This document shows, in pieces, positions 5,732 through 61,098 of a stretch of 64,000 nt of DNA. Both the position numbers and the translations under genes were made by a program. Under the pieces are notes generated by a model, which was not told where the DNA came from, did not search any database, and was given only the letters and a program-made list of their open reading frames with translations. This DNA is from Phycisphaeraceae bacterium (GTDB taxonomy: Bacteria; Planctomycetota; Phycisphaerae; Phycisphaerales; Zrk34). The DNA lies in contig JANQHD010000004.1 in the NCBI GenBank assembly GCA_028282805.1, positions 1-64,000 of the forward strand. Reading direction: 5' to 3'. Within the stretch, counting starts at the first letter, position 1, and every line of letters begins with the position of its first letter.

Positions 5732-5738
5732 GGTTCCA

Positions 5739-5798
5739 GTGCGGAGTTCGGATTGCGGAGTGGGGAATGATTCCGCAATCCGCATTCCGCAATCCGCA
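5739..5798. repeat. 4+4 heptamer inverted-arm element, nuoK-nuoL gap
   Basis: Left arm 5739-5766: GTGCGGA, GTTCGGA, TTGCGGA, GTGGGGA. A 4-bp spacer follows. Right arm 5771-5798: TTCCGCA, ATCCGCA, TTCCGCA, ATCCGCA. The arms pair with few mismatches as a long hairpin. On the minus strand the element starts 5 bp after the nuoK stop and ends 7 bp before the nuoL ATG, leaving only GGAAC as a possible ribosome site for nuoL. Confidence 0.9.
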
Positions 5799-5803
5799 TT
5801 ACC

Positions 5804-6124
5804 TCAGCCTTTCATCGTGCTCCACGCCTCGGCGTCGAGCGTGTGTTTCCTTCTAAACAGAAGCACCACGAGGCCCAGGGCCAGCGCGGCTTCGGCGGCG
5901 GCGATCGTCAAAACGAAGATCACGAACACCTGCCCGTCGAAGTTCATGTGGTACCGGCTGAACGCGACCATCGTCACCACGATGCCCTGGAACATCATCT
6001 CCGTGCACAGGAACATCACGATCAGGTTCCGCCGGGCGACGAAACCGATCAACCCGATGACGAACAACAACGCGCCCGCCAGCAGGTAATGGTTCAGCGC
6101 GATGTTGGACAGTGCGTCGGGCAT
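5804..6124 (-). CDS. nuoK: NADH-quinone oxidoreductase subunit K
   Basis: A 106-residue, three-helix membrane subunit of complex I at the junction between NuoJ and the antiporter subunits. The N-terminal NHYLLAGALLFVIGLIGF helix, the conserved glutamates in FLCTEMMFQGI and AAAEAALALGLVVLLFRR, and the total length match NuoK exactly. It is second in nuoJKLMN. The gap to nuoJ is 186 bp and is largely an octamer inverted-arm element; the gap to nuoL is a heptamer element. It starts at the only suitable ATG. Confidence 0.97.
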   Translation of the reverse strand: MPDALSNIALNHYLLAGALLFVIGLIGFVARRNLIVMFLCTEMMFQGIVVTMVAFSRYHMNFDGQVFVIFVLTIAAAEAALALGLVVLLFRRKHTLDAEAWSTMKG

Positions 6125-6146
6125 GGTCGTCGGGCGATGGGGGATT

Positions 6147-6301
6147 AGCCATCAAGCCATCGAGCCACCCAGCCATCGAGGAGCCGGGTGGGGCTTGAGT
6201 AGCTTGTTCATCCCTTAGTGCATCGCGTGCGTCTCCGTTTACTTACCTCTAAGGCCTGCCATTCGGTCTCGGTGGCTCGATGGCTTGTTGGCTCGGTGGC
6301 T
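6147..6301. repeat. 4+4 octamer inverted-arm element, nuoJ-nuoK gap
   Basis: Left arm 6147-6178: AGCCATCA, AGCCATCG, AGCCACCC, AGCCATCG. Right arm 6270-6301: CGGTGGCT, CGATGGCT, TGTTGGCT, CGGTGGCT. The arms are inverted, and the 91-bp spacer contains no gene. On the minus strand it begins 9 bp after the nuoJ stop. The repeat unit is 8 bp instead of 7, but the layout is the same as in the heptamer elements. Confidence 0.9.
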
Positions 6302-6310
6302 ATTGCCTTG

Positions 6311-12238: not shown

Positions 12239-12323
12239 GCTCCCGTGGCGAAACCGGTAAACGCAACCCCTTTGGGTGGGGCGATCCGGGCAGGATTTGC
12301 GGGTTCGAGTCCCGCCGGGAGCA
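12239..12323 (+). tRNA. Leucine-type class II tRNA with a UGG (proline) anticodon
   Basis: An 85-nt gene folding as a complete class II cloverleaf. The acceptor stem GCTCCCG/CGGGAGC is perfect, with discriminator A. The D arm is of leucine type (TGGCG-AAACCGGTAAA-CGC). The anticodon stem is CCCC/GGGG with an A-C mismatch at 27-43 and loop TTTGGGT, giving anticodon TGG (12273-12275) followed by G37. A long variable arm (stem ATCC/GGAT) and a perfect T stem GCGGG/CCCGC with loop TTCGAGT complete it. CCA is not encoded. LeuRS does not read the anticodon in known bacteria, so this tRNA could be charged with leucine and decode proline codons. It might also be a decaying gene. It lies in the accessory island beside the ImmA-type gene. 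Confidence 0.85.
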
Positions 12324-22618: not shown

Positions 22619-23629
22619 ATGAACGCGACGAATGAACCCAACCGCCCCACCGAGCGCCCCCGGGACCAGCGCCGCGGCCAGGCCGAGCGCGACCGGCACG
22701 CGGACGTGAAGCTCGATGCCGGGCAGTTGATCTACCCGGTGTTTGTGTTGGAGGGCGGAAACGAGCGCCGGCCGGTGGCGTCGATGCCGGGCGTGGACCA
22801 GGTGTCGCCGGACGTGGCGGTGCAGATGATTCAAACACTGGCGCAGCGCGGGCTGCGGCGGTTCATGCTGTTCGGCGTGATCGACCCGGCGAAGAAAGAC
22901 GCGACCGGCAGCGAGGCGCTGAACCCCGACAACCCCGTGCACCAGACGCTGCGGCGCGGGCGCGACGCGGGCTTGGACGTGGAGATGCACGCGGACCTGT
23001 GCTTCTGCGAGTACACCGACCACGGCCACTGCGGCGTGCTGCACGACGACGCCGACGTCACCGTCGACAACGACGCCACGCTCGATTTGCTCGGCGAGCA
23101 GGCGGTCGCGCTCGCCGAGAGCGGCGCCGACTACGTCGACCCCAGCGGCGTGATGGACGGCATGGTCGGCGCGGTCCGGCAAGCCTTGAACCAACACGGC
23201 CACAACGCGGTGCGGATTTTGAGTTACACGGTCAAGTACGCCTCGGCGTACTACGGGCCGTTCCGCGACGCCGGCGGCGGCGCGCCGAAGTTCGGCGACC
23301 GGCGCGGCTACCAGATGGACTACCGCCGATCCGACGAGTGGCGGACCGAGTTGGCGTTGGATATAGCCGAGGGCGCCGACGGCGTGATGGTCAAACCCGC
23401 GGCGAGCTCCCTCGACATCATCCGCCGGGTGCGCGACCACACCCCCGGAAACATGCCCGTGGCGGCTTACCACGTGAGCGGCGAGTACAGCACGCTTCAC
23501 GCGGCGGCCGAAAGGGGCTGGGTGGACCTGCGAGCGGCGGCGGTCGAAACGACGACCGCGATCCGCCGGGCGGGCGCGGACTGGGTGGTGACGTATTTTG
23601 CGCCACAGCTTTTAGACTGGGCGTCTTAA
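22619..23629 (+). CDS. hemB: Porphobilinogen synthase (delta-aminolevulinate dehydratase)
   Basis: A 336-residue enzyme condensing two 5-aminolevulinates to porphobilinogen in tetrapyrrole synthesis. The zinc-type active site is intact: three cysteines in DLCFCEYTDHGHCGVL. The two Schiff-base lysines are in LSYTVKYASAYYGPFRDA and GVMVKPA. The N-terminal 25 residues are charged and lack the usual R-rich LRR block in full. Several ATGs (22607, 22610, 22619) are possible and none has a good Shine-Dalgarno. Its product feeds haem and cobalamin, the latter needed by MetH at 51.8 kb. A heptamer element starts directly after its stop. Confidence 0.95.
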   Translation: MNATNEPNRPTERPRDQRRGQAERDRHADVKLDAGQLIYPVFVLEGGNERRPVASMPGVDQVSPDVAVQMIQTLAQRGLRRFMLFGVIDPAKKDATGSEALNPDNPVHQTLRRGRDAGLDVEMHADLCFCEYTDHGHCGVLHDDADVTVDNDATLDLLGEQAVALAESGADYVDPSGVMDGMVGAVRQALNQHGHNAVRILSYTVKYASAYYGPFRDAGGGAPKFGDRRGYQMDYRRSDEWRTELALDIAEGADGVMVKPAASSLDIIRRVRDHTPGNMPVAAYHVSGEYSTLHAAAERGWVDLRAAAVETTTAIRRAGADWVVTYFAPQLLDWAS

Positions 23630-24090
23630 ATCCGGAATCCGGAGTCCGGAATCCGGAGTTGTGGAGTTATTCTGGAGGAGTTCGAGTCATGGATAAGCGG
23701 CAGTTTCGACAACAGATGACTGAACGAACGAAACAGTTTGCGCTGCGGGTGATGAAGTTAGTTGATGCGCTTCCGAACAAGCGTAGCGCGTGGGTGGTGG
23801 GCGATCAGCTTCTTCGCGCAGCAACCTCGGTGGGGGCGAACTACCGGGCCGCGTGCCGGGGGCGGTCGCAGAAGGAGTTCATTGCCAAGCTGGGCATCGT
23901 CGAGGAAGAGGCGGACGAGTGCGAATACTGGCTGGAATTGATCGCCGCCCACGAGCTGTTGCCCGCCGACCGGGTCGAGCCGTTGTCTGTCGAGTCCCGT
24001 GAAATCACCGCCATCGTTGTCAGCGCCATACGAAACTCACGCTGACGACCGCAAACGGGCGACTCCGGACTCCGAACTCCGGACTCCGAA
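23630..24090 (+). mobile_element. Inverted-arm heptamer element carrying a four-helix-bundle gene (copy A)
   Basis: Left arm, four 7-mers at 23630-23657: ATCCGGA, ATCCGGA, GTCCGGA, ATCCGGA. Right arm, four 7-mers at 24063-24090: CTCCGGA, CTCCGAA, CTCCGGA, CTCCGAA, the inverted version. A 118-residue four-helix-bundle gene fills almost the whole 405-bp interior. The left arm begins at the base after the hemB stop codon. The same arrangement recurs at 28383-28821 with a related gene, and gene-less versions occur elsewhere. Mobility is inferred from this recurrence, not shown. Confidence 0.75.
23689..24045 (+). CDS. Four-helix-bundle protein of the S23/IVP (Avd-like) family, copy A
   Basis: A 118-residue helical protein. 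The core QLLRAATSVGANYRAACR, then QKEFIAKLGIVEEEADE and YWLELI are signatures of the four-helix-bundle family (TIGR02436). That family includes proteins encoded in 23S rRNA intervening sequences and Avd, the accessory protein of diversity-generating retroelements. Avd forms a pentamer and binds nucleic acid; most relatives have no known function. A Shine-Dalgarno GGAGGAG lies 9 bp before the ATG. No reverse transcriptase, variable repeat or 23S rRNA is nearby. It sits between heptamer arms and shares about half of its core residues with copy B at 28426. Confidence 0.92.
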   Translation: MDKRQFRQQMTERTKQFALRVMKLVDALPNKRSAWVVGDQLLRAATSVGANYRAACRGRSQKEFIAKLGIVEEEADECEYWLELIAAHELLPADRVEPLSVESREITAIVVSAIRNSR

Positions 24091-24139
24091 CTTTCGCATT
24101 GCCCGCCCCCCGCCGTCGTCGTAAACTCTTGTTCCCGCC

Positions 24140-24592
24140 ATGACTACAGCAAACGCCCAACCAGTGTGCATGCATGCGGCCAACGTGACGACACGCGTCG
24201 TCGCCGCCGTGGTGTGCCTGGCGTGCTTCGCGCTGTTGGCGTTCGCCGGGTCGTTGACCCCCAGCACCGACGGGCACGGCACGCACACGCAGGTGGGCCT
24301 GCCGCAGTGCTCGCTGATGGCGTTCAGCGACGTGCCCTGCCCGGGCTGCGGGATGACCACGTCGTTCGCGCACGCGGCGGACGGCCGGCTCGACTTGGCG
24401 CTGGTCGCGCAGCCGGCGGGGGCGGTGGGGGCGCTGGCCACGGCGATGGCGGTGCTGATCGCCGGCTACATCGCGGTCACCGGCAACAACGTCGCGGTGC
24501 ACCTGCGGCCGTTGGCCGGGGGACGCGCGGTGTTTGCGTTGTTGGCGCTGATCGCCGCGGCGTGGGTGTATAAGATCGTGACCCTGACCTGA
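24140..24592 (+). CDS. DUF2752-family membrane protein
   Basis: A 150-residue protein with three hydrophobic segments (about 20-40, 95-115 and 130-148) and the family hallmark CPGCGMTTSFAHAADG at about residue 68, a cysteine-rich motif before an amphipathic region. DUF2752 proteins are widespread, small membrane proteins of unknown function. It opens a run of seven closely spaced plus-strand genes to 28383, mostly envelope proteins, probably one operon; 6 bp separate it from the next gene. Confidence 0.87.
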   Translation: MTTANAQPVCMHAANVTTRVVAAVVCLACFALLAFAGSLTPSTDGHGTHTQVGLPQCSLMAFSDVPCPGCGMTTSFAHAADGRLDLALVAQPAGAVGALATAMAVLIAGYIAVTGNNVAVHLRPLAGGRAVFALLALIAAAWVYKIVTLT

Positions 24593-24598
24593 ACCAAA

Positions 24599-25267
24599 AT
24601 GGAACCAACGATGTACCAGACAAGTAGACGGCTGTGGGCGGTGTTGGCGCTGGGCGTGGGCGTGATGAGCCTGGGCGGCTGCAACGTGGTGGGCTTCGTC
24701 GCGCAGGGCGTGGCGGGCGACCCGCCGCCGATCAACGTGACGGCCGAGTATTACGGGCTGGAGAACCAGTCGGTGGCCGTGCTGGTCAACGCCGACCTGC
24801 CGGTGATCTACGCCTACCCGCAGGCGCAGCTCGAGGTGGCCGACGCGCTGGCGCGGAAGATCACGGCCAACGTCGCGGGCGCACGCGTGATCGACGCCCG
24901 GCAGAGCTACGAGTTCCAGGTGCGCAACTACCACTGGACGAACGAGCGTTACTCGGTGCTGGCCGACAAGCTGAACGTCAGCCGGCTGGTCGTGGTGGAG
25001 CTGCTGGAGTACCGCACGCGCGAGCGGGGCAACGCGGCGGTGTACCAAGGGGTGATCATCGCGCGGGTGGACGTGGTCGAGGCCGACGGCGGCCGGCCGG
25101 ACGACGTGGCGTACTCGGGCACGGTCGAGGTGCAGTACCCGCCGGGCGGCAAGCCGATCCCGGTGCCCAGCGCGCAGGAGGTGACGATCCGCAAGGGCAT
25201 GTTGGACATGTTCGCCCTGGCGGCGGGCGGCAAGTTCTACGACCACAAACAACCGCGCGGCGGTTGA
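24599..25267 (+). CDS. Putative lipoprotein (first of a tandem pair)
   Basis: A 222-residue exported lipoprotein with signal peptide and lipobox SLGGC (Cys28), then NVVGFVAQGVAGDPPPINVTAEYYGLENQ. The start could be the ATG at 24599 or at 24611. The mature domain has alternating beta strands and helices (SVAVLVNADLPVIYAYP, RLVVVELLEYRTRERGN). The next gene has the same opening pattern (GCN--G-VA----G-PP) and a similar layout, so the two are likely paralogues. I recall such proteins only as planctomycete hypotheticals. The pair precedes a glycosyltransferase-like and a BamB-like gene, which suggests a cell-envelope role. Confidence 0.8.
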   Translation: MEPTMYQTSRRLWAVLALGVGVMSLGGCNVVGFVAQGVAGDPPPINVTAEYYGLENQSVAVLVNADLPVIYAYPQAQLEVADALARKITANVAGARVIDARQSYEFQVRNYHWTNERYSVLADKLNVSRLVVVELLEYRTRERGNAAVYQGVIIARVDVVEADGGRPDDVAYSGTVEVQYPPGGKPIPVPSAQEVTIRKGMLDMFALAAGGKFYDHKQPRGG

Positions 25268-25277
25268 GGGGGCGATC

Positions 25278-25928
25278 ATGGGTTACCCACGGATAGCGAC
25301 GGGCGCGCTGCTGGTGTTGGTGGCGGCGGCGGCGACCGGCTGCAACGCGATCGGCGTCGTGGCGGACGCCATCGCCGGCCCGCCGCGCGTCGACGCGGTG
25401 TACGACCTGCCCAAGGCCAAGACCGTCGTGCTCGTCGACGACCCGGGCGACCTGCTGCCCACGCGCGACCTGCCCAACCGCATCGCAGGCCGCGTCGGCG
25501 ACGAACTGGTGGCGCAGAAACGAGTCACGCAGGTCATCGGCCCGCGCGTCATCAACGACCTGGCGGCCGGCAACCCCGACTTCGACACCTGGGCGCTGGA
25601 CAAGGTCGGCCGACGCGTCGGCGCCGACCAGGTGGTGTACGTGGTGATCCAGTCGTTTGTGCTCACGGAGAACAACGAGGTGTATGAACCCCAGGCCACG
25701 GCGACGGTCAAGGTGCTGGACGTCGACTCGAGCAAGCGGCTGTTCCCGGTCAGCGAACCGAACGGGCACGTGGTCGTGGCCACCGAACGCCCCGTGCCGC
25801 GCGACGGCGCCTCGAGCAAGACCGACGGCATCATCGCCCGCAGGGTCGCCGATGCTTTGGCCGACAAGGTCGCCAAGCTGTTTTACGACCACCGCCTGCC
25901 GGACGTCGGCGAACGGCTGCCCGGCTGA
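25278..25928 (+). CDS. Putative lipoprotein (second of a tandem pair)
   Basis: A 216-residue exported lipoprotein, lipobox AATGC (Cys22), followed by NAIGVVADAIAGPPRVDAVYDLPKAK. The mature part, KTVVLVDDPGDLLPTRDLP then VGADQVVYVVIQSFVLTENN and VKVLDVDSS, resembles the domain of the upstream gene: a short nucleotide-free alpha/beta sandwich. It follows that gene by 10 bp and precedes the next by 6 bp. Function unknown. Recurrence of paired genes with similar N-termini suggests duplication followed by divergence. Confidence 0.8.
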   Translation: MGYPRIATGALLVLVAAAATGCNAIGVVADAIAGPPRVDAVYDLPKAKTVVLVDDPGDLLPTRDLPNRIAGRVGDELVAQKRVTQVIGPRVINDLAAGNPDFDTWALDKVGRRVGADQVVYVVIQSFVLTENNEVYEPQATATVKVLDVDSSKRLFPVSEPNGHVVVATERPVPRDGASSKTDGIIARRVADALADKVAKLFYDHRLPDVGERLPG

Positions 25929-25934
25929 CCGACC

Positions 25935-26852
25935 ATGGCCGAGCTGCACCTCATCGACGACCAGACGCTCACCGACGCCCCCGTGATCGGGGCGTTGATG
26001 CGTGACCACATCGCACAGAACCCCAAGCCCACGCGGCTGCTGGTGCTCGGCGGCGCCTACGACGGGGCGGCGCTGGGCCTGGGCCCGCACGAGTCGCTCA
26101 ACCTGCCGCGCTTCGCTTCGCCGCTACGCGACCGGCCGCTGCGGCGCTGGCTCGACACGCACGGCCCGTTCAACTCGGTCGTCACCTGGTCGAAGCGGGT
26201 GCGGGCGCTGGCCGAGCGGTTGGCCGGCCGCGCCATCCGCAAGCGCGGCGAGCGCCAGCCGGCGTTGATCGACCCGGCGCGGCTGCACGCCGACCGGCGG
26301 GAGGGGTTGCGTTTGAAGCTGGGCGCGGCCGAGGGCGACCTGGTGGTGTGGCTGATGGCCGACCACTGCGCCGGCGGCGACGCGATGGCGCCGATGCGTC
26401 TGCTCGGGCTGGTCGACGAGACCGGCCGGCGGGCGCGGCTGGTGGTGCACCCGGCGTGCCGACGGCTGAACGCGGCGCGCCAGATGGTCGAGCAACTCGG
26501 CCGGCGGCACCGGTTGATCGGGTTCGAATATGCCCACGAGCCGTGGACGGTGCTGAGCGGCTGCGACGTGGCGTTGGCGATGGACGGCGGCCGCGCGGCG
26601 CGGCGGAGCGTGCCGTGGGCGGCGGCGGCGGGCGTGCCGATATTGACCATGGGCCGGCTCGCCGCAGAGGTGGAGGGCTGGGCAAGCTGGTCGGTCGCAA
26701 GCGACGGCTGGCGGCAGGCGGCGCGGCGGCTGATCGCGCACATCGACGCGCCCGGGGCCTTAGCCGAACACCTGGCCGCCCAACGCCGGCGGGCGGTTCA
26801 GCTGTACGGGCTGAGGGGCGAGCGGGCGGCGTGTTCGGCCGGGATTGCTTGA
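25935..26852 (+). CDS. Glycosyltransferase-like hypothetical protein
   Basis: A 305-residue soluble, arginine-rich protein. The second half reads like the nucleotide-sugar half of a GT-B glycosyltransferase: DLVVWLMADHCAGGDAMAP, RARLVVHPACRRLNAARQMV, RLIGFEYAHEPWTVLSGCDVALAMDGG and a small-residue AAAAGVPILTMG loop. Canonical E-x7-E is not obvious, so the assignment is by fold pattern only and it may be inactive or a different Rossmann protein. It lies within the 24140-28383 gene run, 6 bp after the lipoprotein gene. Confidence 0.6.
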   Translation: MAELHLIDDQTLTDAPVIGALMRDHIAQNPKPTRLLVLGGAYDGAALGLGPHESLNLPRFASPLRDRPLRRWLDTHGPFNSVVTWSKRVRALAERLAGRAIRKRGERQPALIDPARLHADRREGLRLKLGAAEGDLVVWLMADHCAGGDAMAPMRLLGLVDETGRRARLVVHPACRRLNAARQMVEQLGRRHRLIGFEYAHEPWTVLSGCDVALAMDGGRAARRSVPWAAAAGVPILTMGRLAAEVEGWASWSVASDGWRQAARRLIAHIDAPGALAEHLAAQRRRAVQLYGLRGERAACSAGIA

Positions 26853-26899
26853 CCCAAACCGCTCGCCGACCGATACTTGCTGCCCCCGTGGAGGAGCGC

Positions 26900-27205
26900 A
26901 TGGGCGTGCAAGTGTTGTCGACCATCGACCGGCTACCCGAGCCGTTGCGCCGGTTCATGGACCGGTTGACCCCGGAGCAAACGCTGCTGCTGGTGCTCAA
27001 GCGCGACCTGTACGGCGGCGACTGGGGGCCGATGGTCGCCGACCTGACCAACCGCCTGCAGGGCCGACCTTACGTGTTGAAACTGGCCCACCGCATCGAG
27101 GACGACCTGCAACGCATCGCGCAGATGCGCGAGCTGGAAACCCACTACGAGGTCGACTTGGCGGCGTTCCTCGAACCGATCCCCGACCAGGAGAACCCGG
27201 CATGA
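26900..27205 (+). CDS. Small conserved-looking hypothetical protein
   Basis: A 101-residue soluble protein: MGVQVLSTIDRLPEPLRRFM, then TPEQTLLLVLKRDLYGGDWG and a helical C-terminus ending in EPIPDQENPA. A strong Shine-Dalgarno GGAGGAG precedes the ATG at 26900. Its stop overlaps the start of the beta-propeller lipoprotein gene (ATGA at 27202-27205), so translation is coupled. The open frame extends far upstream, but the upstream part overlaps the previous gene out of frame and is spurious. Family not recognised. Confidence 0.72.
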   Translation: MGVQVLSTIDRLPEPLRRFMDRLTPEQTLLLVLKRDLYGGDWGPMVADLTNRLQGRPYVLKLAHRIEDDLQRIAQMRELETHYEVDLAAFLEPIPDQENPA

Positions 27206-28383
27206 CAACCAACTGGCTCAAGGCGGCGGTGCTGATGGCGCTGTTGACCGGCGCGACCGCGTGCTCGTCGCAGCAGAAGGCCGACGGCGAGAAAGACGAC
27301 TGGATCGGTCCGCTGGTCAATTGGATCCCGTTCGTCGGCGACAACAAGGACGACGAGCAGGTCGAAGACCCGCTGCTGGCCGACGTCGACGAAGCGGCCA
27401 AGCTCGGCTACCGCGTGCAGTGGCAGATCAACCTCGGCCTGGCCGGCGCCGAACACATCGAAATGATCACCCCCCTGCCCGGCAACCGGCTGGCGATCTT
27501 CGAGTCCGGCAACATCATCCACCTCGTCGACGCACGCTCCGGCAACACCATCTGGCGCAGCTCGATCGGGCACGTCAGCGAGATCTTCACCCGCGCCCAG
27601 GTCGTCGGCGGCAACCTGCTGCTGTGCAGCCAGTCGCAGATGTACACCCTGCGCCTCGACAACGGCGGCATCCGCGACGTGCTCAAGTTCCCCGCCCTCA
27701 GCGCCCAGACGCCGCTGATCGACCGCGGCCTGGTCATCTCCGGCTCGCCCAGCGGCCTGCTGTTCGCCCAGTCGCTGACGTCCGGCATCGTGCAGTGGCG
27801 GTACCAGATGTCCGCGGCGGTCATGGCCCCGCTGGTCGTCGCCGACGGCCTGGTCATCGCCACCGACGGCTCGGGCAACGTCGCCGTGCTCAGCCAGGGC
27901 AGCGGCCGCATCGTCTGGCGCAGTTTCCAGCCGCCCTGGGGCGCGACCACCGCCGAGCCCGCGGCCAACGCCGACAGCATCTTCATCGCCAGCGAAGACC
28001 AGAAGCTCTACGCCTTCGACCGCACCGGCGGCACGCTCATCTGGGAGTACATCGCCGAGACCAAGCTCACCACCGGCCCGACCATCTTCAAGAACAAGCT
28101 CCTGCAATACGTGCCCGGGCGAGGCACCGTCGCGCTCGACACCCTCACCCGCGAAGAGTACTGGCGCTCGCCCGAACTCAAGGGCGACCCCGCCCAGCTC
28201 AACGGCAACGACCTGATGGTCCTCGACGGCACCGACGTCAAGCTTGTCGACTTCGACAACGGCGAGGTGATCGAGACCGTCTCGTTCCCCCGCGCCGACC
28301 GCCTGTTCTCCGACGCCAGAGCCAACGGCAACCTGTACCTCATCCACGACGGCGGCAAGATCCTCAAGCTCGGCCCCCGGTGA
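27202..28383 (+). CDS. BamB/PQQ-like beta-propeller lipoprotein
   Basis: A 393-residue exported protein: signal peptide MTTNWLKAAVLMALLTGATAC with lipobox TATAC (Cys21), an acidic linker, then repeated propeller blades with the PQQ-like pattern (GNTIWRSSIG, GIVQWRYQMS, GRIVWRSFQP, GGTLIWEYIA). The overall design resembles BamB of the outer-membrane assembly complex, but PQQ-like propellers serve many roles. It ends the 24140-28383 run and is translationally coupled to the 101-residue gene. Its stop codon touches the left arm of inverted-arm element B. Confidence 0.85.
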   Translation: MTTNWLKAAVLMALLTGATACSSQQKADGEKDDWIGPLVNWIPFVGDNKDDEQVEDPLLADVDEAAKLGYRVQWQINLGLAGAEHIEMITPLPGNRLAIFESGNIIHLVDARSGNTIWRSSIGHVSEIFTRAQVVGGNLLLCSQSQMYTLRLDNGGIRDVLKFPALSAQTPLIDRGLVISGSPSGLLFAQSLTSGIVQWRYQMSAAVMAPLVVADGLVIATDGSGNVAVLSQGSGRIVWRSFQPPWGATTAEPAANADSIFIASEDQKLYAFDRTGGTLIWEYIAETKLTTGPTIFKNKLLQYVPGRGTVALDTLTREEYWRSPELKGDPAQLNGNDLMVLDGTDVKLVDFDNGEVIETVSFPRADRLFSDARANGNLYLIHDGGKILKLGPR

Positions 28384-28821
28384 TTCGAGTTCGGAGTTCG
28401 GAGTGCGAAATAGAAGGTGGATCGCATGGCTGGGGGTACGGCCGAGAACTTGAAAGATCGAACGAAAGCCATGGCGTTGCGGGTGATTCGGATGGCAGAG
28501 TCGTTACCCCGGGGCCATACAACCGAGGTGATTGCCCGCCAGGTGATCCGCTCGGCAACTTCCGTCGCCGCGAACTACCGCGCCGCTTGTCGGGCGCGGT
28601 CCAACGCCGAGTTTGTTGCTAAACTGGGCATCGTCGAAGAGGAGTGTGATGAAACCCGGCTCTGGCTGGAGATGCTGGTCGATGCCGGGCTGATCGTTCA
28701 CGAACGACTCGACGGCTTGATGAATGAAACCAACGAGATCATCGCCATGACCGTGGCCTCGATTAAGACCGCTCGAGGCCCCCGCAAATAAGAAATCCGC
28801 ATTCCGCAATCCGCACCCCGC
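28383..28821 (+). mobile_element. Inverted-arm heptamer element carrying a four-helix-bundle gene (copy B)
   Basis: Left arm, four 7-mers at 28383-28410: ATTCGAG, TTCGGAG, TTCGGAG, TGCGAAA. Right arm, four 7-mers at 28794-28821: AATCCGC, ATTCCGC, AATCCGC, ACCCCGC, inverted in sense. The 383-bp interior is nearly all the four-helix-bundle gene. The left arm starts at the last base of the preceding TGA stop codon. Arm sequence differs from copy A, but number, period, orientation and cargo are the same. Confidence 0.75.
28426..28791 (+). CDS. Four-helix-bundle protein of the S23/IVP (Avd-like) family, copy B
   Basis: A 121-residue helical protein with the same landmarks as copy A: QVIRSATSVAANYRAACRAR, NAEFVAKLGIVEEECDE and LWLEML. 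I start it at ATG 28426, which has AGAAGGTGG just upstream; a GTG at 28417 in the same frame overlaps that site. The N-terminus is basic (ENLKDRTKAMALRVIRM), as expected for a nucleic-acid-binding bundle. There is no DGR reverse transcriptase or rRNA nearby. It stands alone between a lipoprotein gene and purH, framed by heptamer arms. Confidence 0.92.
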   Translation: MAGGTAENLKDRTKAMALRVIRMAESLPRGHTTEVIARQVIRSATSVAANYRAACRARSNAEFVAKLGIVEEECDETRLWLEMLVDAGLIVHERLDGLMNETNEIIAMTVASIKTARGPRK

Positions 28822-28837
28822 ACTCGACACACACCCA

Positions 28838-34148: not shown

Positions 34149-34748
34149 ATGACCGACAGCGGAACGAGCAGCGAATTGAGAAACAAGCAAGTGTTCACCA
34201 CGGGCGAGGCGGCGGAGGTCTGCCAGGTCTCGCAGCAGACGATCATCCGGTGCTTCGACGCCGGGCGGTTGCAGGGGTTCCGCGTGCCGGGCAGCCGGTT
34301 CCGCCGGATCCCGCGTGAGGAACTCGTGCGCTTTATGAAGGACAACAACATCCCGCTGGATCGCCTCGAGTCCGACAAGAAGCGCATCCTCGTGGTCGAC
34401 GACGACGAGCAGATCGTCGAGCTGTTCGTCGACGTCTTGTCGCGCGACGGGCGTTTCGAAGTCAAGACCGCGTCGACCGGCTACGACGCGGGCATGCAGA
34501 GCCAGCAGTTCCGCCCCGACCTGATGATCCTCGACTACATGCTGCCCGACGTGAACGGCAACATCGTGTGCAAGACCGTGCGCGACAACCCGGCGATGGC
34601 GGCGATGAAGATCATCATCGTCTCCGGCGTGGTCAACCAGGACGAGATCGACGACCTGCTCCAAGCCGGCGCCGACGACTTCGTCAAGAAGCCGTTCAAC
34701 ATCGAACGGTTGATGGCGCGCATCAACGAACTGTTAGAAATAGGCTGA
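34149..34748 (+). CDS. Response regulator with N-terminal excisionase-type HTH and C-terminal receiver
   Basis: A 199-residue regulator in which the usual domain order is reversed. Residues 15-68 form a MerR/excisionase-like helix-turn-helix (FTTGEAAEVCQVSQQTIIRCFDAGRL, with FRVPGSRFRRIPREELVRFM). Residues 78-199 are a receiver domain: acidic pair VVDDDEQ, phosphoacceptor Asp in LMILDYMLPDVNG, conserved Thr/Ser replaced by IIIVSGV, and Lys in DFVKKPFN. Start at 34149, with AGAGAGG upstream. It heads a signalling cluster with the HDOD-histidine kinase and the REC-GAF protein, separated from the former only by an inverted-arm element. Confidence 0.9.
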   Translation: MTDSGTSSELRNKQVFTTGEAAEVCQVSQQTIIRCFDAGRLQGFRVPGSRFRRIPREELVRFMKDNNIPLDRLESDKKRILVVDDDEQIVELFVDVLSRDGRFEVKTASTGYDAGMQSQQFRPDLMILDYMLPDVNGNIVCKTVRDNPAMAAMKIIIVSGVVNQDEIDDLLQAGADDFVKKPFNIERLMARINELLEIG

Positions 34749-34751
34749 GCA

Positions 34752-34836
34752 AGTGCGGAGTGCGGGGTGCGGATTGCGGAATGACTAAGCCTGCGCAGCC
34801 GCAGAAAACTCCGCATTCCGAAATCCAAACTCCGCA
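34752..34836. repeat. 4+4 heptamer inverted-arm element before the HDOD kinase gene
   Basis: Left arm 34752-34779: AGTGCGG, AGTGCGG, GGTGCGG, ATTGCGG. Right arm 34809-34836: CTCCGCA, TTCCGAA, ATCCAAA, CTCCGCA. The spacer is 29 bp and has no gene. It starts 3 bp after one stop codon and ends at the base before the next ATG (34837), so it replaces any normal ribosome site for the kinase gene. Confidence 0.88.
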
Positions 34837-37158
34837 ATGCCCACACCCCCCGACCCAACCTCCGCCCGGCGTATCGAGCTGATCCTCGAGCAGGTCGAGG
34901 CGTTGCCCACGCTGCCCGCGGTGGCGATGCGGCTGCTTCAGATCACCAGCGACGACGAGTCCGACGCCCGCGAGGTCATCGACACGGTCAGGGCCGACCC
35001 GTCGCTGACCGCGAAGATCCTCAGCCTGTGCAAGGGCGCGGCCGAGGGGGGCGTGAACGTCACGACGCTGACCATCGACAAGGCGGTGGTGCTGCTGGGC
35101 TTCGAGGCGATCCGCAACGCGGTGCTCTCGATCAAGGTCTTCGAGCAGTTCAACGGCGACGAACCGACCGAAGAAGACGAGCTGACGCGCTTCAGCCGGC
35201 CGGCGTTCTGGCGCCATTGTTTGGCCACGGCGATCTGCTGCGAGCTGGTCGCCGCGGCGCACGGCGGGCAGGAAGAGCTCAACCCCGCCGAGGCGTTCGT
35301 GTGCGGCCTGCTGCACGGCATCGGCAAGCTCGCGCTCGAACACGTGCTGCCCAAGAGTTACCAGCGCGTGATCGAGCTGACCGAGCAGACGCAGGGCAAC
35401 ATCGCCGACGTCGAACGCCGGGTCATCGGCATCGACCACCACACGGCGGGCAAGCGGCTGGCGGAGAAGTGGAACCTGCCGCACACGCTGTGCGACAGCA
35501 TGTGGCTGTACGAGAGCCCCGCACGCTCGCTGCCCGACGTGCCGCACCGGCGGCTGGTGGGCCTGGTGGGCCTGGGCGAAGCGGTCGTGCGTGCCCAGCA
35601 CATCGGTTATTCGGGCAACTACCTGGTCGTCGACGATATCGACGAGCGCGCCGAGGCGCTCGGCCTCGAACCGGCGAAGGTGCGCGACGCGGCGGAGACG
35701 GTCATGGAACAGCTCGAACAGCGCGGCGCGGCGCTGGGCCTGGGCGAGACGCCGTCGCGTGAGCTGTTCATGGAATCGATCATGCAGGCCAACGCCGTGC
35801 TCGGCCGGCTCAACAGCCGGCTGGAGACCCACCGGCGCCAGGCGGCGCGGCAGACGAAGGCGATCGACGCGATCCGCAACTTCCACGCCAACGCCGCCAG
35901 CAGCGCCCGCAGCGTCGGCGACGTGCTGTCGACGGTGGTGGCCAGCGCCGCGTCGGTGCTCGGCGACGGGCAGTACGCGATCATCTACCAGCCGACGGGC
36001 CAGAGCAACTGGCAGATCAGCCGCCACACCCACGAAGGGCGGATCACCGCCAACCACCTCGTCGAGCCGCCGCCGCAGGTCGGCCAGCTGTCGGTGCTGG
36101 CGCGGCGGGAGGACCTGCCGATCAGTTTGATGGGCGTGATGCCCTGGCTGAGCGATTACCTGGTGGGCTTCGACGACCTGCGCCGGGTGAAGCTGATGCC
36201 GCTGCCCTGCGCGTGGGGGACCGCGGCGGTGCTCGTGCACGACCGCGATGCGCTGCCGGCCAAGGACCAGCTCAAGGCGCTGACCTACACCTGGGGCGCC
36301 GCGATCGGCGCCGCCACCCAGCACGAGGGCGCCCGCCGCATGAGCGAACAGCTCGCCGAGGCCAACCGCGTGCTGACCGAAACGCAGGACACGCTGTTGC
36401 GCAACCAATCGCTGGCGCGCCTCGGCGAGATGGCGGCGGGCGCGGCCCACGAGATGAACAACCCCCTGGCCGTGATCAGCGGCCGGTCGCAGTTGCTGGC
36501 GATGCAGTTGCCCAAGGCGACCAAAGAGCAGCAGGCCGCGGCGCAGGTCTACGAGCAGAGCCAGAAGCTCAGCGACATGATCACGGCGTTGCACCTGTTC
36601 GCCGAGCCGCCCGAGCCGAGGTACGAGCAGGTCGGCATGGTCGACGTGATGCAGGACGCGGTGTCGATCGTGCGCAAGCGGAACCCGAAGCTGCCGGCGT
36701 TGCGGTTCAACCCCGCGATGGGCCTGCCGCTGCTGCACACCGACCGCCAGCACGTCGCCCAGGCGCTGGCGGAGCTGATGCTCAACGCCTACGAGGCGTC
36801 GCCGACACAAACCGTGCGGGTTCTTGCCCAAGTCGACCCGCTGGATGACCGATTGGTGATTAAGGTCACAGACGACGGACCGGGCATGGACGCCCACACG
36901 CTGAAACACGCGTTCGACCCGTTCTTCTCGTCGAAGCCGGCCGGCCGCCAGCCGGGCCTGGGCCTCGCCCGGGCGCAACGCCTGATCGAAGCGATCGACG
37001 GGCGGATCGAGCTGGCCAGCCAGCCGGGCGAGGGGACCACCGCGTCGATCCGGTTGCCGGTCGGCAAGGTGAAAGACGAGGTGGGCGGGAGTGCATCGGG
37101 CACGGCCGCGACACCGGAGGCAAACGGAGAAGGCCGTGTCATTCACGCCGACCCATAA
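34837..37158 (+). CDS. HDOD-domain sensor histidine kinase
   Basis: A 773-residue cytosolic protein. Residues 12-225 form an HDOD domain (LPTLPAVAMRLLQI, ADPSLTAKILSLCKG, LLHGIGKLALEHV), a non-catalytic HD relative used in signalling. About 345-500 looks like a GAF-type sensor. A coiled-coil linker leads to the histidine kinase: H538 in GEMAAGAAHEMNNPLAVISG, then the ATPase boxes VTDDGPGMDAHTLKHAFDPFF and GLGLARAQRLIEAIDG. No membrane segment, so it senses an internal signal. Its 3' end overlaps the REC-GAF gene by 23 bp; together they are likely a two-component set. No Shine-Dalgarno is seen because an inverted-arm element abuts the ATG. Confidence 0.93.
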   Translation: MPTPPDPTSARRIELILEQVEALPTLPAVAMRLLQITSDDESDAREVIDTVRADPSLTAKILSLCKGAAEGGVNVTTLTIDKAVVLLGFEAIRNAVLSIKVFEQFNGDEPTEEDELTRFSRPAFWRHCLATAICCELVAAAHGGQEELNPAEAFVCGLLHGIGKLALEHVLPKSYQRVIELTEQTQGNIADVERRVIGIDHHTAGKRLAEKWNLPHTLCDSMWLYESPARSLPDVPHRRLVGLVGLGEAVVRAQHIGYSGNYLVVDDIDERAEALGLEPAKVRDAAETVMEQLEQRGAALGLGETPSRELFMESIMQANAVLGRLNSRLETHRRQAARQTKAIDAIRNFHANAASSARSVGDVLSTVVASAASVLGDGQYAIIYQPTGQSNWQISRHTHEGRITANHLVEPPPQVGQLSVLARREDLPISLMGVMPWLSDYLVGFDDLRRVKLMPLPCAWGTAAVLVHDRDALPAKDQLKALTYTWGAAIGAATQHEGARRMSEQLAEANRVLTETQDTLLRNQSLARLGEMAAGAAHEMNNPLAVISGRSQLLAMQLPKATKEQQAAAQVYEQSQKLSDMITALHLFAEPPEPRYEQVGMVDVMQDAVSIVRKRNPKLPALRFNPAMGLPLLHTDRQHVAQALAELMLNAYEASPTQTVRVLAQVDPLDDRLVIKVTDDGPGMDAHTLKHAFDPFFSSKPAGRQPGLGLARAQRLIEAIDGRIELASQPGEGTTASIRLPVGKVKDEVGGSASGTAATPEANGEGRVIHADP

Positions 37159-38249: not shown

Positions 38250-38310
38250 ATGCGGAGTGCGGATTTCGGAGTGCGGAATGGGGGAGTAACTCCGCATTCC
38301 GCATTCCGCA
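38250..38310. repeat. Heptamer inverted-arm element between convergent genes
   Basis: Left arm 38250-38277: ATGCGGA, GTGCGGA, TTTCGGA, GTGCGGA (a fifth, ATGGGGG, is degenerate). Right arm 38290-38310: CTCCGCA, TTCCGCA, TTCCGCA. It fills the gap between the ends of the REC-GAF gene and der, so it could act as a two-way terminator-like hairpin, although T tracts are absent. Confidence 0.88.
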
Positions 38311-39710: not shown

Positions 39711-39722
39711 TGTTGTCTCGTC

Positions 39723-39813
39723 AGCCAACCAGGCACCGAGCCACCGAGCCATCGAGAACGACGGGGGGCCCGCATTGATCTAGGTGGCTTGTTGGCTCCT
39801 TGGCTGGGTGGCT
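39723..39813. repeat. 4+4 octamer inverted-arm element, tsaB-der junction
   Basis: Left arm 39723-39754: AGCCAACC, AGGCACCG, AGCCACCG, AGCCATCG. Right arm 39782-39813: AGGTGGCT, TGTTGGCT, CCTTGGCT, GGGTGGCT. Spacer 27 bp. The arms pair as a hairpin. The right arm is translated as the last residues of TsaB, and the left arm lies just upstream of the der ATG. Confidence 0.9.
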
Positions 39814-40493
39814 TGATTCTTCTGCCAAATCTCTTCCGCCTCGGGCAGGCGGACGTACAGCGGGCTCAGCGCGTAGGGGTCGGTGGTTTCGCCGCGCTCG
39901 AGCATGGCCCTGCCGAGTCGCCACACCACCTCGCTGCGCGGCACGGCCAGCTCGACACCCAACCGCTCAATCGCGCCGGGCCAATCGAGGCGCTCGACCA
40001 CGTGTGCGTCGCCGACCACCGCGGCCGGTTCGTGTTCGGCCACCTGCGGCGGCGTGAGCAGGGCCGGGTCGGTGATGCGTTGCCAGCCGTCTTCGGTGCG
40101 CTGGTAGACGCCCGTGAAGCACTGGCCGCGTTTGGCGTTCAAACAGACCGCCACGCGCTCGTGGTCGGCGGTGACGTTTTCGGCGATCACGTCCAGCGTG
40201 GGCACCGCGGCGATCGCGGCGCCGCTGACGCGGGCGAGTGTTTTGGCGATGGTCACGCCGATCCGCAAGCCCGTGAAACTGCCCGGCCCGACGGAGACGA
40301 AAACCGCCTCGCAGTCGCGCGGCTGAAACCCGTGGCGGGCGACCATGGCGTCCACGGCCGGCATCAACGCGATGGCGTGCCGCTGTTGCGCGGGCAAAAC
40401 CCCGCTTTCCAGCAGTTCATCGCCCGCACCAAGGCTGACGCTGCCGGCCGGCGAGGAGGTTTCGATCGCCAGGTTGTACCGCGCGGTGGGCAT
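39780..40493 (-). CDS. tsaB: tRNA N6-threonylcarbamoyladenosine (t6A) synthesis protein TsaB
   Basis: A 237-residue ASKHA-fold protein that, with TsaD and TsaE, modifies A37 of ANN-decoding tRNAs. Typical features are the N-terminal LAIETSSPAGSVSL, the SVGPGSFTGLRIGVTIAKTL block and CLNAKRGQCFTGVYQ. Start at 40493 (MPTARYNLAIETSS); a longer frame upstream is GC artefact. The last 12 residues (QATQPRSQQAT) are encoded by the right arm of an octamer element, so the native C-terminus was probably altered. It is followed by der. Confidence 0.93.
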   Translation of the reverse strand: MPTARYNLAIETSSPAGSVSLGAGDELLESGVLPAQQRHAIALMPAVDAMVARHGFQPRDCEAVFVSVGPGSFTGLRIGVTIAKTLARVSGAAIAAVPTLDVIAENVTADHERVAVCLNAKRGQCFTGVYQRTEDGWQRITDPALLTPPQVAEHEPAAVVGDAHVVERLDWPGAIERLGVELAVPRSEVVWRLGRAMLERGETTDPYALSPLYVRLPEAEEIWQKNQATQPRSQQAT

Positions 40494-55501: not shown

Positions 55502-55694
55502 AATGCGGAATGCGGAATCCGGATTGCGGAATCGCTATTTCAAGGCCATCATTCCGCCTCCGAAACCGCCGATGGAGTATCCATGATCCGACCATTGTTC
55601 ATCCTGTTGTTGCTTGGCCTGAACACGGTCACCTTCGCCGATCAGGGCTCCCAGAACGAGCAAACGACCCCGGATTCCGGACTCCGGATTCCGG
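55502..55694. repeat. 4+4 heptamer inverted-arm element spanning the start of uppP
   Basis: Left arm 55502-55529: AATGCGG, AATGCGG, AATCCGG, ATTGCGG. Right arm 55667-55694: ACCCCGG, ATTCCGG, ACTCCGG, ATTCCGG, inverted in sense. The 137-bp interior contains a Shine-Dalgarno, an ATG (55583) and a hydrophobic signal-like peptide in frame with uppP; the right arm itself is translated. A weaker C-rich group (ATTCCGC, CTCCGAA, ACCGCCG) occurs inside at 55551-55571. Confidence 0.75.
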
Positions 55695-56572
55695 ATTCAG
55701 ACATGGCCCTCTGGCAGGCCGCCGTGCTGGGCGTCGTTGAAGGCCTGACCGAGTACCTGCCGGTCAGTTCGACGGGCCACCTGATCCTGGCGCAGCAGGC
55801 GATGGGCATCGGCATGCTCGACCTCGACGATAAAGAGGCCGTCGAAAAGGCGAAGCGCGCCGCCGACGCCTACGCGATCTGCATCCAGGCCGGCGCGATC
55901 CTCGCGGTGCTGTTGCTCTACTTCGGGCGCGTGAAACAGGCGCTGCGCGGCTTCACAGGCGACGCCGAAGGCAGGCGGTTGCTGCTCAGCATCCTCGCGG
56001 GTTTTGCTCCCGCGGCGGTGATCGGGCTGCTGCTCGACGACGTGATAAAAAGCAAACTCTTCGCCGGCGGCGCGTGGGGGCTTTGGCCGACCATCGGCGC
56101 ATGGGCCGCCGGCGGGTTGGCGATCCTCATCGTCGGTTGGACCCGCCGCGGCGAGCGCGACCCACACAAGGGCAAGTCGCTCGAAGAGTTGACCTGGCAA
56201 CTGGCGCTGATCATCGGCTTCCTTCAGTGCATCGCGATGTGGCCCGGCGTGTCGCGCTCGCTGGTCACCATCGTCGGCGGTGTGGTCGTCGGTCTGCGCC
56301 TCGCCGCCGCCGTCGAGTTCAGCTTCCTGCTCGGCTTGATCACGCTCGGCGCCGCCACGTGCTACGACGGCCTCAAGCACGGCCGCGACATGCTCGACAC
56401 CTACTCACCGCTCACGCTCGCCGTGGGCCTCGTCTTCGCCGCCCTCAGCGCCGCGCTCGCCGTCAAGTGGATGGTCGCCTACCTCAACCGCCACGGCCTG
56501 CAAATCTTCGGCTACTACCGCGTCGCGCTCGCCGTCGTGGTCGCGGTGTTGGTGTTGTTGGAAATCTTGTAA
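55583..56572 (+). CDS. uppP: Undecaprenyl-diphosphate phosphatase with repeat-encoded N-terminal extension
   Basis: A 329-residue integral membrane enzyme that recycles undecaprenyl carrier lipid for peptidoglycan synthesis (BacA family). Catalytic motifs: EGLTEYLPVSSTGHL and PGVSRSLVTI. The usual start would be ATG 55703 (MALWQAAVLGVVEG), but it has no ribosome site because heptamer repeats abut it. ATG 55583 has GATGGAG upstream and adds about 40 residues: a signal-like helix (IRPLFILLLLGLNTV) and a hydrophilic stretch (TTPDSGLRIPDSD) encoded by the repeat arm. A middle insertion after about residue 80 (DLDDKEAVEKAKRAA) is also longer than in E. coli. Function is certain; the actual start is not. 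Confidence 0.93.
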   Translation: MIRPLFILLLLGLNTVTFADQGSQNEQTTPDSGLRIPDSDMALWQAAVLGVVEGLTEYLPVSSTGHLILAQQAMGIGMLDLDDKEAVEKAKRAADAYAICIQAGAILAVLLLYFGRVKQALRGFTGDAEGRRLLLSILAGFAPAAVIGLLLDDVIKSKLFAGGAWGLWPTIGAWAAGGLAILIVGWTRRGERDPHKGKSLEELTWQLALIIGFLQCIAMWPGVSRSLVTIVGGVVVGLRLAAAVEFSFLLGLITLGAATCYDGLKHGRDMLDTYSPLTLAVGLVFAALSAALAVKWMVAYLNRHGLQIFGYYRVALAVVVAVLVLLEIL

Positions 56573-60696: not shown

Positions 60697-61092
60697 GTGC
60701 GTGGCGGAGGTGACCGCCGGGCCGGCGCGAGTCGGCCGGGAGGAAAGTCCGAGCACGGCAGGACACGGTGGTGGGTAACGCCCACCCGGCGACCTGGCGA
60801 CGGGCCGCCGCGGGACAGTGCCACAGAAAGCAAACCGCCGATGGCCCGAAAGGGCACAGGCAAGGGTGAAAAGGTGCGGTAAGAGCGCACCGCCGCGCGG
60901 GCGACCGTGCGGGCACGGTAAACCCCACCGCGTGCAAGACCAAGCAGCGATGCGCCGCACGGCGCGGCTGGTCCGGCCGTCCCTACGGGGAGCATCGCGG
61001 GTAGGTTGCTCGAGCCCGTCGGCAACGGCGGGCCTAGATGAATGGTCACCCCCCGCTTGCGGGGAACAGAACTCGGCTTACGAGCCACGCAC
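60697..61092 (+). ncRNA. rnpB: RNase P RNA, bacterial class A
   Basis: The catalytic RNA that matures tRNA 5' ends. P1 is formed by GTGCGTGGC (60697-60705) and GCCACGCAC (61084-61092). The universally conserved blocks are present in order: GAGGAAAGTCCGAGC near the 5' end, ACAGAAAGCAAACCGCC, the AAGGGTGAAAAGGTGCGGTA region, GTGCAAGACCAAGCAG, and ACAGAACTCGGCTTACGA near the 3' end. Length of about 396 nt fits class A. A terminator follows at once. Divergent from the Gfo/Idh-like gene. Confidence 0.96.
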
Positions 61093-61098
61093 CGCACA

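Follow-up and report, generated by a model that had tools for sequence, protein, structure and literature searches.

Two units in the window (the whole stretch of 64,000 nucleotides that was analysed, from contig JANQHD010000004.1 of a Phycisphaeraceae bacterium) are, in our judgment, fairly likely to belong to a class of minimal, widely distributed mobile elements, in which an S23/IVP protein reads the short tandem words that form the ends of its own element and also serves copies that lack the gene. S23 genes with such arms are present in many phyla, the words are matched to the protein, and most units follow a stop codon; taken together, this suggests mobile DNA of a class that has been overlooked and has no recognisable transposase.

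The window elements are about 440–465 bp long, and S23 is the sole gene inside each. The left arm of element 1 (23630..23659, + strand) starts directly after the TAA stop codon of hemB (23627-23629) and consists of about four tandem heptamers of the type AATCCGG/AGTCCGG (ATCCGGA ATCCGGA GTCCGGA ATCCGGA GT). It is followed by an S23/IVP four-helix-bundle gene (23689..24045, + strand; 118 aa, ATG at 23689, TGA end; PF05635 E 5.6e-19) and by a right arm (24061..24092, − strand), where about four and a half heptamers run in the inverted sense and read AGTCCGG/AGTTCGG inward. In element 2, the left arm (28384..28409, + strand; about 3.5 heptamers AGTTCGG/AGTGCGA) stands directly after a TGA stop codon (28381-28383), the S23/IVP four-helix-bundle gene encodes 121 aa (28426..28791, + strand; PF05635 E 4.1e-18), and the right arm (28794..28822, − strand), located before purH, has four inverted heptamers read inward as AGTGCGG/ATTGCGG. 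The layout put forward in the original prediction, i.e. a heptamer arm, one S23 gene and an inverted arm, is borne out at both loci, and so are its claims that the words differ from element to element and that the left arm lies at a stop codon. Its count of four heptamers per arm holds for the left arm of element 1, while that of element 2 has slightly fewer.

The two window proteins score 68.8 and 66 bits against PF05635 (Pfam curated cut-off 33.8). No other Pfam family passes its cut-off in the enclosed proteins, none of which is a transposase of known catalytic class. Nothing in the S23 protein points to catalytic activity, and we know of no catalytic residues in the four-helix S23 fold, a point against the mobile-element reading. 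The AlphaFold2 model of element 2 S23 has four helices (pLDDT 94.8), and structure comparison matches S23 to 2rld and 2gsc; by analogy with these relatives, whose crystals contain five chains, S23 probably forms a ring. Kinship with Avd, the four-helix bundle of diversity-generating retroelements (DGRs), had also been proposed. It stands as a matter of fold, with Foldseek TM values of 0.77 to Avd (4dwl) and about 0.77 to the DGR ribonucleoprotein (8ub7) at about 14% identity, but it does not extend to a retroelement partner: the genome's single RVT_1 match lies on another contig (C52), and, unlike in a DGR, neither a reverse transcriptase nor a template repeat is seen next to S23 units. For S23 pairs with measurable distance, dN/dS is 0.04–0.18, which indicates purifying selection. 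With one protein as query, a phage collection yields no S23 match. Members of the family are annotated as "four helix bundle protein" or, misleadingly, as "S23 ribosomal protein".

That the units are insertions follows from sites that exist in both filled and empty form. A genome of the same genus (G001) lacks the insertion at both window positions: the left arm of element 1 and both arms of element 2 are missing there, and the right edge of element 1 is the point where conserved sequence restarts. On Nostocales plasmids, filled and empty alleles are resolved to the base pair at four sites (A, C, C2, and D), while site B exists in empty, gene-less and S23 forms, and unit numbers vary among close copies. 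The prediction of a mobile unit is supported by both sets of alleles, which are what is generally expected of a mobile element, i.e. filled and empty versions of one site. A consistent target-site duplication is not found at the resolved Nostocales sites (GTAA is possible at A, and none is evident at C2 and D), which counts against the mobile-element reading.

Insertion also favours the ends of genes. A co-directional stop codon lies within 10 bp of the left-arm start in 72% of 143 loci, compared with 3.5% in the control; this controlled test was used in place of a count of gene directions, which is noisy in G+C-rich DNA. A retroelement, in which S23 works with a reverse transcriptase encoded in trans and an RNA intermediate accounts for the biases in strand and towards stop codons, would fit both the Avd-like fold and the position of the units behind co-directional stop codons. 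We regard this as very improbable, as RVT_1 is not associated with S23 (25 of 64 S23 genomes vs 16 of 57 others), and four genomes with 5–8 S23 genes each (G060, G058, G005, and G006) have no RVT_1 match.

The arms are a general feature of the family. Inverted tandem arms flank 102 of 119 S23/IVP (PF05635) loci from the taxonomic order to which the window belongs, with 7-mers in 76 and 8-mers in 26. Flank periodicity exceeds the 99% null at lag 7 in 48% and at lag 8 in 22% of these 119 loci, while each of the other lags from 4 to 12 does so in <2%. Similarly, upstream flanks compared with the reverse complement of downstream flanks have a median score of 26 within a locus and of 13 between swapped loci, and together with the lag enrichment this excludes chance. 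Arms are present in nearly all of 80 named S23 loci from many phyla, always with periods of 7 or 8, and armed loci are found in Bacteroidetes, Alphaproteobacteria, Cyanobacteria, Chloroflexi, Clostridia, and others. As such, homologous genes elsewhere do carry the arms, and their absence there would have spoken against the original prediction. Unit counts per arm have medians of 4.1 and 4.3, values to be read against a method floor of about four. The G-rich inward sense is fixed in both arms (145 to 9). A test of unit order between the arms reaches p ≤ 0.05 in 4 of 80 loci, with low power at four units; with no register memory found, the arms do not seem to be exact fold-back copies. One clade of the S23 tree has no arms, so S23 can persist without them, which counts against a mobile class.

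Arm words covary with the S23 protein (Mantel r 0.382, 0 of 999 permutations as high), whereas reversed words do not (r −0.109), and on the S23 tree the arm states are accounted for by 18 changes, compared with a mean of 39.2 after shuffling. In 492 kb of the genome, intergenic periodic segments number 48 at lag 7 and 16 at lag 8, with 1–8 at other lags; gene-less arm pairs are common there, and arm pairs contain either S23 or nothing, i.e. arms are not placed at random relative to these genes. A resident S23 element is the best match of 35 of 47 gene-less arrays (31 of 43 without an unrelated repeat), against 4.8% expected. For example, inverted pairs with the words of element 2 (AGTGCGG/ATTGCGG) are located at 5735..5806 and at 34748..34838, the latter beginning where a + strand gene ends. 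A short gene-less inverted pair, TGCGGAG / TCCGCAT, occupies 38251..38310, and in a probable gene-less element at 55502..55698 about 130 bp separate an array of AATGCGG from an inverted one of CCGGATT. Two octamer arm pairs, at 6143..6304 (AGCCATCG) and at 39719..39817 (AGCCACCG), carry the words of another S23 element (L002, contig C31). These copies have no definable orientation, because an inverted pair reads identically from either strand. A long pure heptamer array also stands alone at positions 1-103. The original prediction held that the protein recognises or spreads the arms; word–protein covariation and gene-less arrays with resident words are sequence patterns that argue indirectly for recognition, while spreading by the protein would be a further step. 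The covariation could also come from inherited linkage within one unit, without direct contact.

As with MITEs, copies that lack the gene and have inverted repeats coexist with gene-bearing elements that share their ends. Here, though, the gene-bearing partner lacks a known transposase, the ends are word arrays, and no consistent target duplication is seen. A similar likeness exists to REPINs and their RAYT transposases (PMC3116915), i.e. small intergenic inverted-repeat units, non-autonomous copies, and repeats matched to a resident protein, except that S23 replaces the Y1 transposase and the ends are arrays of 7-8-bp words instead of a REP palindrome. A Y1 (IS200/RAYT-type) transposase located elsewhere might move the hairpin-forming units, with S23 as passenger or helper; REPINs (PMC3116915) likewise have inverted palindromic units, small gene-less copies and no clear target duplication, and Y1_Tnp is present in 72 of 121 genomes. 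We find this quite improbable, given that the words covary with S23, that one genome (G025) has ten S23 genes and zero Y1_Tnp matches, and that no Y1 (RAYT) gene lies inside S23 units. Co-occurrence across genomes gives no support for a consistent partner of either kind, Y1 or reverse transcriptase. It is extremely improbable that the arms are ordinary slipped-strand satellites grown around S23 genes, with neither recognition nor mobility. Such satellites would fit the unit numbers that differ between close copies and the long pure arrays that stand alone, like that at 1-103, but not the restriction to periods 7 and 8, the inverted arms with their fixed G-rich sense, the enclosure of S23 only, the covariation, or the clean empty sites.

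We also considered an autoregulatory role, in which S23 would bind the arm words of its own mRNA in the manner of TRAP, each ring subunit holding one word, and control translation or decay; recombination or an unrelated enzyme would move the unit incidentally. The left arm is located just upstream of the S23 start, relatives form rings and Avd acts on RNA within the DGR complex, and the RNA of element 1 folds with its arms paired (z −3.5). This explanation is nonetheless unlikely. The right arm bears the same words on the opposite strand only, an arrangement that recognition of the S23 message as RNA would not need, the RNA fold of element 2 is no better than 10 of 100 shuffles, and the numerous gene-less arm pairs are left unexplained. 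In addition, the arm pairing has no G-U bias, a negative outcome in the test for a selected RNA stem, and together with the fixed G-rich inward sense this points to DNA rather than an RNA stem.

In the mobile-element reading that we prefer, each end consists of about 4–5 tandem 7- or 8-bp words, in inverted sense and with S23 as the sole gene between them. An S23 ring would read these words at the DNA level and so define the ends, and it would serve MITE-like gene-less derivatives with the same words elsewhere in the genome. Insertion is preferred directly behind a co-directional stop codon, which keeps the host gene intact and lets S23 ride on host transcription. We infer that S23 binds nucleic acid, acts as a ring, has a role in movement, which it would drive, and works in trans. 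More tentatively, and leaning slightly against it, we propose that S23/IVP represents a bacteria-wide mobile class without a known transposase, in which a pentameric ring reads 4–5 words per end, takes part in post-stop insertion and mobilises gene-less copies, with many dispersed heptamer repeats, as well as the S23-bearing rRNA intervening sequences (IVSs), arising from this class. If true, a common orphan family would gain a function, the heptamer and octamer arrays seen in many bacteria would be explained, and the IVSs, long a puzzle, would find their place in a larger family. Words and proteins that diverge together are also a natural data set from which to read out a recognition code.

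Among the closest known counterparts are the 23S rRNA IVSs with an S23 ORF, such as that of Coxiella burnetii, which has 428 nt, terminal inverted repeats that form a 28-bp stem with the S23 ORF in its loop, and tandem GACAGAT heptamers of strain-variable copy number just before the S23 start (PMC4990558). The window units are of similar size and likewise have an S23 ORF between terminal inverted repeats, with heptamers before the start. They differ in that IVSs sit in rRNA helices and are excised by RNase III, while the window units follow stop codons of protein genes; rRNA is absent from the window and from the surroundings of 60 named relatives. Word–protein covariation and gene-less copies also set them apart from IVSs as described (PMC4990558). 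Mobility of IVSs was suggested by earlier authors, and the Coxiella S23 protein is reported not to be made in vivo (PMC4990558), which counts against the mobile class. The rRNA IVSs may be related members of an S23 class, and a cautious placement of the window units would be as a variant among S23-bearing intervening elements. In open-access full texts we found no description of S23 genes between word arms outside rRNA, although subscription journals or preprints could hold one. The TAACTGA heptamers of Beggiatoaceae and cyanobacteria, for which carriage by mobile elements has been raised, were described with no mention of S23 or four-helix proteins (PMC4679880). They occur in tandem between genes, and the window arms are, like them, short intergenic tandem heptamers.

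Both units of the window have the design set out in the original prediction, i.e. arms of tandem short words in inverted sense on both sides of a lone gene, which matches the 23S_rRNA_IVP family (S23, PF05635). Element 1 (23630-24092) starts directly past the hemB stop TAA (23627-23629) and element 2 (28384-28822) directly past the TGA (28381-28383) of a PQQ-propeller-like ORF, both genes named from their translations, so the proposed placement of the left arm at a stop codon holds in both. As also claimed, the arm sequences differ between the two loci, although their words follow a single style (AATCCGG, AGTCCGG, AGTTCGG, and AGTGCGG). Four heptamers per arm stand for three arms, but the left arm of element 2 has ~3.5. 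The sole Rfam matches in the window are a class A RNase P RNA (60697-61096) and a tRNA (12239-12323). The window opens with a long pure array (TGCCGAT x13, 1-103), and contig C27 starts and ends in others (TTTGCCC and GGTCAACT, at L073 and L074), so the assembly was probably broken by long word arrays.

The window's genome (3.9 Mb, 56 contigs) harbors nine S23 genes, 8 of them flanked by arms as judged by eye, with words including GGGTTCC, GGCTTGA, CCAATGA, and the octamers AGCCACCG and GGTCAATC. Of the order's 119 S23 loci, 102 have the expected period of 7 or 8 in inverted sense, with arms built of heptamers in 76 and of octamers in 26. Periodicity of the flanks passes the 99% null in 48% of these loci at lag 7, in 22% at lag 8, and in <2% at any other lag; upstream flanks compared with the reverse complement of the downstream flank have a median score of 26 within a locus vs 13 between loci. 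Arms are also present at nearly all of 80 named loci that came out of scanning GTDB genomes (Bacteroidetes, Alphaproteobacteria, Cyanobacteria, Chloroflexi, Nitrospirae, SAR324, Clostridia, Acidobacteria, Verrucomicrobia, and others), and at S23 loci of viral contigs. The arm-flanked S23 unit is real, is found widely, and has no description in the open-access literature searched.

We find 24 inverted arm pairs in 492 kb of the window's genome, 7 with S23 inside and 17 with no gene. Of 47 gene-less arm sequences that match some S23 element's arms well, 35 have a resident element as best match (4.8% expected), as do 31 of 43 once an unrelated TATAG repeat is excluded. This is how non-autonomous derivatives would look if resident elements served them in trans or were their ancestors.

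There is good support for these units as a class of inserted element. G001, the one genome of this genus that was searched (purH 83% identical), is empty at both window sites, with neither arms nor S23 gene. At site 1, conservation of the intergenic sequence returns at the right arm's outer edge; G001 has 40-odd unmatched bases from hemB to this edge, which may reflect a small replacement. At this hemB stop or ahead of purH, three genomes (G008, G057, and G005) carry other arm pairs or arrays that hold no gene. Nostocales plasmids resolve filled and empty alleles to the base pair. Site A (plasmids ~97% identical) is filled in Trichormus and Scytonema and empty in Aulosira and Nostoc carneum, reading AAAAAGTAA/TTAACAAATAATT-ATG; empty site C2 reads GAGGTAA/ATGGG, stop and start without any base between, and sites C and D resemble these two. 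Site B is empty in one plasmid, holds a gene-less arm pair in another, and an S23 unit in two. The same insertion varies between copies by entire heptamers, and no target-site duplication is consistent across the resolved sites. Three gene junctions of one operon, ORF441-ORF288-ORF1542, are occupied by S23 units or gene-less ones in different Nostoc plasmids (L292, L303-L308), which makes this operon an insertion hot spot.

Of 143 loci with arms on both sides, 72% have a same-strand stop, ending an open frame of 300 nt or more, no further than 10 bp from the outer edge of the left arm vs 3.5% of random positions, and 18% have an antisense stop at the right edge vs 3.4%. Selection against harmful insertion can account for the avoidance of genes, but not easily for this precision; in the window's genome, 4.6% of intergenic insertions placed at random would land no more than 7 bp from the stop.

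Word similarity climbs with S23 protein similarity (165 loci, Mantel r = 0.382, 0 of 999 permutations; reversed-word control, r = -0.109), and the three arm states require 18 changes on the S23 tree vs a mean of 39 when shuffled. Members of a clade have words of one style, both octamer (GTTAATCG, GAGGCACG, and GGTGGGGA) and heptamer (GATTGAT, GGCATCA, GGGTCTA, and AGTNNNN). This covariation supports a role for S23 in end recognition, as the original prediction had proposed. S23 pairs whose distance could be measured show purifying selection, with dN/dS at 0.04-0.18 in eight of them.

Recognition could involve DNA words or a selected RNA hairpin. Arms are predicted to pair in the RNA of element 1 (z = -3.5), with z = -1.4 for element 2. 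However, words read inward are the same in both arms (G-rich in 145 of 154 loci), between-arm mismatches have no G-U bias (148 vs 159), and unit order in one arm is not copied in the other, which together favor DNA word recognition. Each of the solved relatives 2gsc and 2rld contains five chains, and a structure model of the element 2 protein fits both, as well as Avd, making a ring that would read 4-5 words plausible.

No recognisable moving enzyme lies within the unit. Reverse transcriptases show no association with S23, being found in 25 of the 64 genomes that bear it and 16 of the 57 that do not; some S23-rich genomes are without them, and a genome with ten S23 genes has no Y1 transposases. 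Cutting and joining could be a host pathway, with S23 a candidate for a role in movement.

Closest to these units is the 23S rRNA intervening sequence (IVS) with an S23 ORF. That of Coxiella, termed selfish or possibly mobile, has tandem heptamers varying in copy number ahead of the S23 start and a terminal stem of 28 bp (PMC4990558). The window units lie outside rRNA and so are not IVSs, but IVSs may be members of the class resident in rRNA. In REPIN/RAYT systems, repeats likewise match a resident protein (PMC3116915), with another protein and other repeats; Avd of DGRs shares the S23 fold.

One well-supported S23 clade is essentially armless (L007, L045, L159, L160, L162, L164, L166, L168, and L178); its octamer-labelled members L163 and L172 have no convincing arm pair. 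Upstream of S23, L007, L045, L159, L160, L162, L164, and L178 carry GCCGATA / CGGTAACC in place of word arms, possibly the gene's own control region. This S23 may be domesticated; dN/dS is 0.45 for L007/L045. Another clade (L144, L146, L148, L152, L154, and L155) has a different layout, with the two arms of its inverted pair (GAGCAGGAGA ... CTCCTGCTC) 5' of S23, along with a conserved CTCCTGCGGTC. Finally, a palindromic repeat, TATAGTTTATAGACTATAAAC, unrelated to the word arms, is dispersed in the window's genome (C31:51560-51937, C31:56381-56587, and beside one S23 element, L001).
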